DNA of 64,000 nt from Helicobacteraceae bacterium (GTDB lineage Bacteria > Campylobacterota > Campylobacteria > Campylobacterales > Sulfurimonadaceae), in the NCBI GenBank assembly GCA_015488775.1, contig WFNF01000140.1:1-64000 (forward strand), given 5' to 3'. How positions within the stretch are numbered: position 1 is the first letter of the stretch; each line of letters starts with the position of its first letter. The translations under genes and the position numbers were made by a program. The notes beneath the pieces are model-generated. The model was not told the DNA's origin and searched no databases. It saw nothing but the letters and a program-made list of their open reading frames with translations. Of this stretch, positions 8,196 to 19,448 are shown piece by piece.

Positions 8196-8211
8196 TTGTA
8201 TACAATATAAT
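8196..8211 (+). promoter_or_regulatory. Promoter with adjacent palindrome for the small basic protein
   Basis: TATAAT (8206-8211) lies 31 bases before the GTG start at 8243. Directly before it is the perfect palindrome TTGTATACAA (8196-8205), which could be an operator but is short and AT-rich. Confidence 0.4.
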
Positions 8212-8242
8212 CTATTAATAAAATTATATAAAAGGAGATATT

Positions 8243-8344
8243 GTGGCTAAAGGTAAAGATACTCAAAAATCAGTTAAAAAAGCACCTGCAAAAAGTTTAA
8301 AAGAGAAGCGTAATGATAAAAAACTTAAAAAAAGTCAAGGGTAA
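8243..8344 (+). CDS. Small Lys-rich protein, 33 residues
   Basis: GTG start with a strong AAAGGAG site five bases upstream. The product begins MAKGKDTQKSVKKAPAKSLK and has about 14 Lys among 33 residues with no acidic patch and no Cys or Trp. The good ribosome site, the TATAAT promoter and its coding-like composition make it likely to be translated. I recall similar tiny Lys-rich proteins in this phylum, but no function. It lies just before the split RNase H gene, with 9 bases between, and is probably cotranscribed with it. A nucleic-acid-binding role is only inferred from charge. Confidence 0.6.
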   Translation: MAKGKDTQKSVKKAPAKSLKEKRNDKKLKKSQG

Positions 8345-8353
8345 TATAGACTA

Positions 8354-9105
8354 ATGTCTAAAGAACAACTCTATTAGGGCACCTCTAAAAACCCTAGTGC
8401 CCCTCAGAGGGAAGAAAAAAAGATGAGATTTTGTAAAAGCTTTTATGAGTCATAGCCGTAGCTATGGCGATTAAAAGTTTTACTAAATATCGCTTTTTTT
8501 ATCCCTCCCTTTGGGCATTACATAGGAGCTTACACTCCGCGTTAATCTTTTTCGACTTAGCTTTGGCTAGGTCTTCAAAAGATTGCCTTGATTGTAAACT
8601 CCTATGTAATGCTGAGGGGCACTAGGGTTTTTAGAGGTGCCCTTTATTTACAGATGGAAGTGTTAACCCTCAAAGCGGAGTTGGATTTGGAGCTTATTTA
8701 CTTTTAACTAAGCTGAGGTTCACCTGCGATGTATTGAAAAATAAAATCAAGATTAAACAATTTACAAACACCTCTTCAACAAAACTAGAAGTTGAAACAC
8801 TTTTATGGGCTTTAAATCAAATCGACATAAAAAACTACAAAATCCAAATATATACAGACTCTCAAAACATCATAGGCCTCAATGATAGAAGAGATAAATT
8901 TGAAAAAAATAATTATATTACAAGTAAAGGCAAACTGATTAAAAATCATGAACTTTATAAAGATTTTTTTAATAAAATGGATATATCGCAATGTGAACTT
9001 ATTAAAGTTAAAGGTCATAAAAAAGCAAGTCTAAAAAATGAGATAGATGATATATTTAGCCTTGTTGATAAAGCAACAAGAGACTATCTGCGTAAAGTAA
9101 CTTAA
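8354..9105 (+). pseudogene. rnhA: RNase HI gene interrupted by a MITE-like element
   Basis: Positions 8354-8374 encode MSKEQLY; a stop (TAG at 8375-8377) then arises at the element junction. After the element, from 8644, the frame resumes LFTDGSVNPQSGVGFGAYL, the first beta hairpin of RNase HI with its catalytic Asp. It goes on with the helix Glu (TKLEVETLLWAL), the second Asp (IYTDSQNI), KGHKK and the last acidic region before the stop at 9103-9105. Joined, the two parts give a normal-looking enzyme of about 160 residues, which cuts RNA in RNA-DNA hybrids. The downstream part cannot start before the catalytic Asp (TAG at 8632-8634 in frame), so the gene is probably dead. Confidence 0.7.
8376..8643. 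mobile_element. 268-bp MITE-like element with nested inverted repeats
   Basis: The ends are perfect 32-bp inverted repeats (8376-8407 and 8612-8643) that begin AGGGCACCTCTAAAAACCCT. Each end is itself a small hairpin (GGGCAC...GTGCCC). Inside lies a second inverted pair of 20 bp with one mismatch (8515-8534 and 8593-8612, GCATTACATAGGAG...), adjoining the right outer arm. A further short palindrome is CATAGC/GCTATG near 8451-8466. No open frame for a transposase is seen, so it is non-autonomous. It sits within the RNase HI coding sequence. A target duplication is at most TT, TTA or TA and cannot be fixed from one copy. Confidence 0.75.
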
Positions 9106-19414: not shown

Positions 19415-19448
19415 TTTAGGGTACTAGGGTTTTTAGAGTTGCCCTAAA
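19415..19448. repeat. Solitary REP-like hairpin, copy of the MITE terminus
   Basis: TTTAGGGTA and TGCCCTAAA form a 9-bp stem with one wobble pair. The core matches the right end of the element at 8376-8643 at 25 of 27 positions (shared ACTAGGGTTTTTAGAG). It lies between the EAL gene and trmA, where it may also act as a terminator or barrier. Confidence 0.65.

Follow-up and report, generated by a model that had tools for sequence, protein, structure and literature searches.

Interruption of an RNase HI gene

In the window (the whole stretch of 64,000 nucleotides analyzed), the two parts of an RNase HI gene lie on either side of an inverted repeat at 8354-9105, raising the questions of what split the gene, whether it still functions and which RNases H are left to the genome. 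A sequence-only reading had proposed that a MITE-like element split the gene near its start, that the junction creates a stop and that the downstream part cannot start before its catalytic Asp. All three proposals are borne out by direct reading of the sequence. On the forward strand, the 5' stub (8354..8377) runs from an ATG at 8354 through the codons TCT AAA GAA CAA CTC TAT (MSKEQLY) to a TAG at 8375-8377, which is composed of TA from the flank and the first G of the element. The remainder of the gene (8635..9105, forward strand) is preceded by a TAG at 8632-8634 and is open over 8635-9102, with its stop at 9105. The codons ahead of the catalytic Asp (8653-8655) are AGG TGC CCT TTA TTT ACA, with no ATG, GTG or TTG among them, and the earliest in-frame start listed downstream is a TTG at 8734 (123 aa). 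Translation from the ATG thus ends directly behind codon 7, and no start lies ahead of the first catalytic Asp, so that the gene is no longer intact and translatable. A small basic ORF recognized by sequence reading (8243..8344, forward strand; GTG start, 33 codons, AAAGGAGA upstream) terminates 9 bases 5' of the RNase HI start, and is probably co-transcribed with the RNase HI gene.

When joined, the two parts match Pfam RNase_H (PF00075) with 60.7 bits (cut-off 25.8), and in an alignment with E. coli RNase HI (rnhA) the motifs FTDGS, LEVE, YTDSQ and KGH, together with the last Asp, supply all of the D-E-D-D residues as well as the active-site His. However, the NCBIfam ribonuclease HI model gives only 58 bits against its cut-off of 160, and solved RNases H are matched weakly (best E 0.00025).

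Uninterrupted copies, which the sequence-only reading had suggested looking for in related genomes, are present in other genera. Homologues of the broken gene were found in 13 of 100 relatives by whole-genome protein search, a count that leaves out three weak matches (E >= 1e-4); a short-peptide-pattern scan of genome contigs with the RNase protein found none in any relative, where the whole-genome search did match. The closest homologue (L049, genome G012; 64% identity) shares the start region, AAAGAAAAACTCTATCTATTTACTGATG, without an insertion; it reads ATGCATAAAACTAAAGAAAAACTCTATCTATTTACTGATG, that is, KEKLYLFTDG in one uninterrupted frame. This implies that the ancestral site here was CTC TAT TTA TTT ACA, the empty site being represented by homologues from other genera at no more than 64% identity, rather than by a related strain. 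The homologues start directly with the strand that bears FTDGS, and all of them have this N-terminal strand and an FxDGS/DAS motif.

The homologues also bear on whether the gene could still be alive, with its downstream part translated from an internal start as a short working protein. The 8635-9102 frame is intact, all four catalytic positions are kept, and the TTG at 8734 could begin a fragment in which RNase_H is still recognized (43.6 bits). However, this TTG, the sole start listed, is downstream of the first catalytic Asp, the N-terminal strand and motif are common to all homologues, and an RNase H without the first catalytic Asp is expected to be inactive; a working short protein is therefore very unlikely. 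A similarly small probability is given to an assembly error in which a repeat was wrongly joined to unrelated flanks. The draft is fragmented (170 contigs), and many element copies lie at contig ends, pointing to difficult assembly around the repeat. However, both flanks come from a single gene, as the codons on the left match the homologue start and the right part continues it without loss, and there is a near-duplication of the target at both edges of the element.

A secondary RNase HI gene of about 160 codons has thus very probably been inactivated by insertion of a 266-bp MITE, which has IS5-type ends and entered a TTTA target behind codon 7. The element would have been moved by an IS5-family transposase acting in trans, and the product of the gene is presumably inactive. 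The insertion may be fairly recent, as the RNase HI frame is otherwise undamaged. The broken gene offers a clean natural knock-out and dates movement of the element in one lineage. The gene break as such is ordinary, and the element family is the part worth following up.

RNase H complement of the genome

The expectation that RNase HI had been lost does not hold as it was worded. Another RNase HI gene in the genome is intact (C70:25669-26094), encoding 270 aa that include the catalytic residues, and the genome therefore still has an RNase HI. What was broken is a divergent second gene of this kind with a patchy distribution, being limited to the 13 of 100 relatives noted above. Of the two further enzymes that the sequence-only reading had proposed to look for, a second RNase HI is therefore present, and RNase HII gave no match in the draft genome, although it is present in 55 of 60 relatives. 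The canonical rnhA of about 150 aa that is common in relatives was not found in the draft either. As the completeness of the draft is given as 95.38%, rnhB could sit in an assembly gap; a chimeric query built from the rnhB neighbors in G012 matched nothing but the hydrolase downstream, which has other surroundings here. The 270-aa enzyme may thus be the one intact predicted RNase H left in the draft, unless rnhB lies in such a gap. If RNase HII is truly absent as well, the genome would be a naturally occurring example of an organism that lives with a single predicted RNase H.

Six genomes, including this one (G000, G008, G012, G018, G033 and G068), have no match to a canonical RNase HI of about 150 aa and carry a longer RNase HI of 261-285 aa. 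The type of about 160 aa is also found in G000, G008, G012, G033 and G068, but not in G018. The longer and the 160-aa types may replace the canonical RNase HI gene in those genomes.

The inserted element and its copies

The element occupies 8377-8642 on the forward strand, its limits being set by comparison with other genomic copies. Its inverted ends are GGGCACCTCTAAAAACC (GGGCACC...GGTGCCC), and it has a branched fold and no transposase; the longest listed ORF inside it is 53 aa, without an assigned family. The terminal repeats of 31 bp are perfect in the window copy (positions 1-31 versus 236-266, 100%). The inverted-repeat nature of the element was correctly recognized from sequence alone, but its length is 266 bp; the 268 bp first given takes in a complementary base from either flank. 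The target duplication of this copy is imperfect, with TTA on the left (8374..8376, forward strand) and TTTA on the right (8643..8646, forward strand), suggesting that one T has been lost from the left TTTA.

About 24 places match the element in its own genome, a 2.7-Mb draft, and nine of these are complete inside contigs; the true copy number is uncertain, as many copies stop at contig ends. Several of the complete copies have identical 4-bp flanks (TAAA/TAAA, TTTA/TTTA, TTAT/TTAT), and copies in other genera have TTAA-like 4-bp duplications (TTAA, TAAA, TAAG, TGTA and similar). Matches were found in 38 of 100 relatives, counting partial matches. Plasmid and phage records that were searched gave no match, and the terminal inverted repeat pattern occurs in two stretches of viral contigs. 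With terminal repeats, no transposase, dispersed copies and 4-bp TTAA-like duplications, the element is a MITE by definition. That this family has moved, as was claimed from the insertion itself, is supported by the uninterrupted homologues, by the 4-bp duplications at many copies and by a second split gene with a perfect TAAA duplication.

This second gene encodes an RT-Cas1 fusion, with cas2 directly downstream, and is split by the element copy L004 (G000:C24:3468-3733). The reverse transcriptase and the beginning of Cas1 are on the left, and the remainder of Cas1 is on the right; when the element is deleted along with one of the TAAA copies, a frame of 697 aa is open again. Since the element splits RT-Cas1, a CRISPR adaptation gene is broken here too.

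Other forms of the element were also seen. In the window, a lone half-element, GGGTACTAGGGTTTTTAGAGTTGCCC, lies between TTTA and TAAA at 19419-19444, in the gap between two genes. Longer versions of 290-313 bp are found in the same genome (L007, L008, L009) and elsewhere (L107, L155), apparently with extra inner-hairpin sequence.

Relationship to the IS5 family

The ends of the MITE, GGGCACCTCTAAAAAC, and its TTAA-like 4-bp target duplications are like those of the IS5 family (NF033581, transpos_IS5_4). Autonomous IS5-family elements in other genomes have these ends (16-17 bp identical to those of the MITE) and the same kind of target, are 1.2-1.35 kb long and carry a DDE transposase. They include L218, L219 (1270 bp, GGGCACCTCTAAAAAC ends, flanked by two TTAA copies), L136 (1292 bp, two TGTA copies), L094 (1208 bp, two TTTA copies), L116 (1214 bp, two TTCA copies) and L212 (1252 bp). 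For the transposase of L212, the IS5 model NF033581 gives 275.5 bits (cut-off 140), and DDE_Tnp_1 and DUF772 are matched as well. In the assembly that holds the window, a transposase with these ends was not found: around the sole DDE_Tnp_1 match (C11) there are none of these ends, and the L212 transposase has no match in the genome. The presumed driving transposase has either been lost, been collapsed in the draft or is missing from it.

Unlike the autonomous elements, the MITE has no transposase, and by inspection its sequence past the end repeat does not visibly continue into that of the compared IS copies. Judged by this, the MITE does not appear to derive from those copies by a simple loss of interior sequence.

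IS5-type ends are also found on other short elements. Minimal elements of 38-52 bp, approximately two end repeats back to back, occur at L123:234-271, L118:2872-2918, L109:281-330, L133:3158-3209 and L160:4727-4776, and several have 4-bp target duplications. Elements of 121-195 bp with the same type of ends and other interiors (L098, L101, L105, L110, L114, L121, L126, L134, L132, L140, L148) are hosted by MAGs named Spirochaeta, Tannerellaceae, Ruminococcus, Sulfuriferula, Saprospiraceae and others.

Predicted fold and covariation

The inverted repeat of the window copy is predicted to fold with -149.9 kcal/mol, compared with -67.4 +/- 4.9 for shuffled sequences, a difference well outside what chance would give. 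On the forward strand, the left terminal inverted repeat forms the 5' arm of an outer stem (8377..8406, 30 consensus pairs, helix 1), and the right terminal inverted repeat forms its 3' arm (8613..8642). Between them lie hairpin 1 (8407..8507, helices 2 and 3), with a conserved CATAGCCGTAGCTATGG tip, a short two-pair hairpin (8508..8514, helix 4) that is invariant in an alignment of 17 sequences, and hairpin 2 (8515..8612, helices 5-7), with a conserved CGTTR ... GCCTTG motif at its middle. No Rfam 15 family reaches its gathering score at 8200-8800, and the sub-threshold matches are chance-like.

The fold also bears on how the split gene is read. Removal or skipping of the element at the RNA or ribosome level, with the full protein still made, would suit so stable a closed structure, and exact removal of 266 bp gives CTC TAT TAT TTA TTT ACA in frame (MSKEQLY-Y-LFTDGS), but this is highly improbable given that an in-frame outcome has a one-in-three chance, that the RT-Cas1 copy is restored only if 4 nt are removed besides the element, and that the Rfam matches in the window are far below every threshold and include no intron.

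Among 51 distinct copies of the element, most are 264-268 bp long, and identity between genera drops to approximately 70-85% in searches. In 36 copies, one structure of 107 pairs is paired in 92% of cells, with 74 pairs changed on both sides, compared with 40-49% paired and 32-44 pairs changed on both sides in slid controls. In the separate 17-copy alignment, 68 of 101 predicted pairs have double changes. Here, 93.2% of cells are paired (shuffles 77.5 +/- 0.6) and 265 cells have double changes (shuffles 78.7 +/- 7.6; slid versions <=65). None of 500 shuffles reaches the observed value on any measure, although the size of the effect counts more than the number of shuffles, as the structure comes from the same alignment and the shuffles keep relatedness. 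The covariation indicates that the predicted branched fold (an outer stem and two long hairpins with a short one between) is maintained across genera.

The arms of a palindrome can also stay alike through copying from arm to arm, or through the needs of a DNA cruciform. Arm-to-arm recombination is a possible cause of covariation in the outer stem, but it fits hairpin 1 less well. In the outer stem, G-U and A-C cells are on a par (32 and 37), which fits arm copying or a cruciform. In hairpin 1, G-U cells outnumber A-C cells (158 versus 54), and hairpin 2 has one U-G pair that all 17 of 17 sequences keep unchanged. Since arm copying tends to remove such wobble pairs, these observations lean toward an RNA made from the strand shown; as a few columns carry most of the wobbles, the excess serves as a lead rather than as a test.

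Among MITEs, a short non-coding element in which paired mutations preserve the fold from genus to genus would be unusual. Such conservation would mean either that the folded form matters for movement, or that the element acts in the cell. It is conceivable, although less likely than not, that selection acts on the fold and that the element, with its IS5-type ends, is a mobile structured RNA or a DNA cruciform and not a passive deletion derivative; pointing this way are the compensatory changes between genera, the one-strand conservation of wobbles in hairpin 1 and the invariant U-G of hairpin 2.

Comparison with known MITEs

Prokaryotic MITEs that are derived from or mobilized by IS elements include Chunjie of Geobacter uraniireducens and QMITE2 of Coxiella (reviewed in PMC10969869). 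Like these, the present element is below 500 bp, with terminal inverted repeats, target duplications, many copies, a stable fold and no transposase, and it is mostly intergenic, with occasional gene disruption. It differs from MITEs of the Chunjie and QMITE2 type in that both its full length and its branched fold are kept from one genus to another, with compensatory changes in the sequence. A limited literature search found no report of such cross-genus conservation of length or fold for any MITE, and no description of the element was found in literature on MITEs in Sulfurimonas or Campylobacterota or on the end sequence. The family is apparently undescribed so far.

The motif of hairpin 2, CGTTR ... 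hairpin ... GCCTTG, is present in 37 of 51 copies of the 266-bp family. It is also seen in 4 of 12 outside elements (L110, L132, L140 and L148), where the 12 include one short Campylobacterales element and the motif was chosen after looking. In shuffled sequences the motif occurs at roughly 0.04-1.1% per element.
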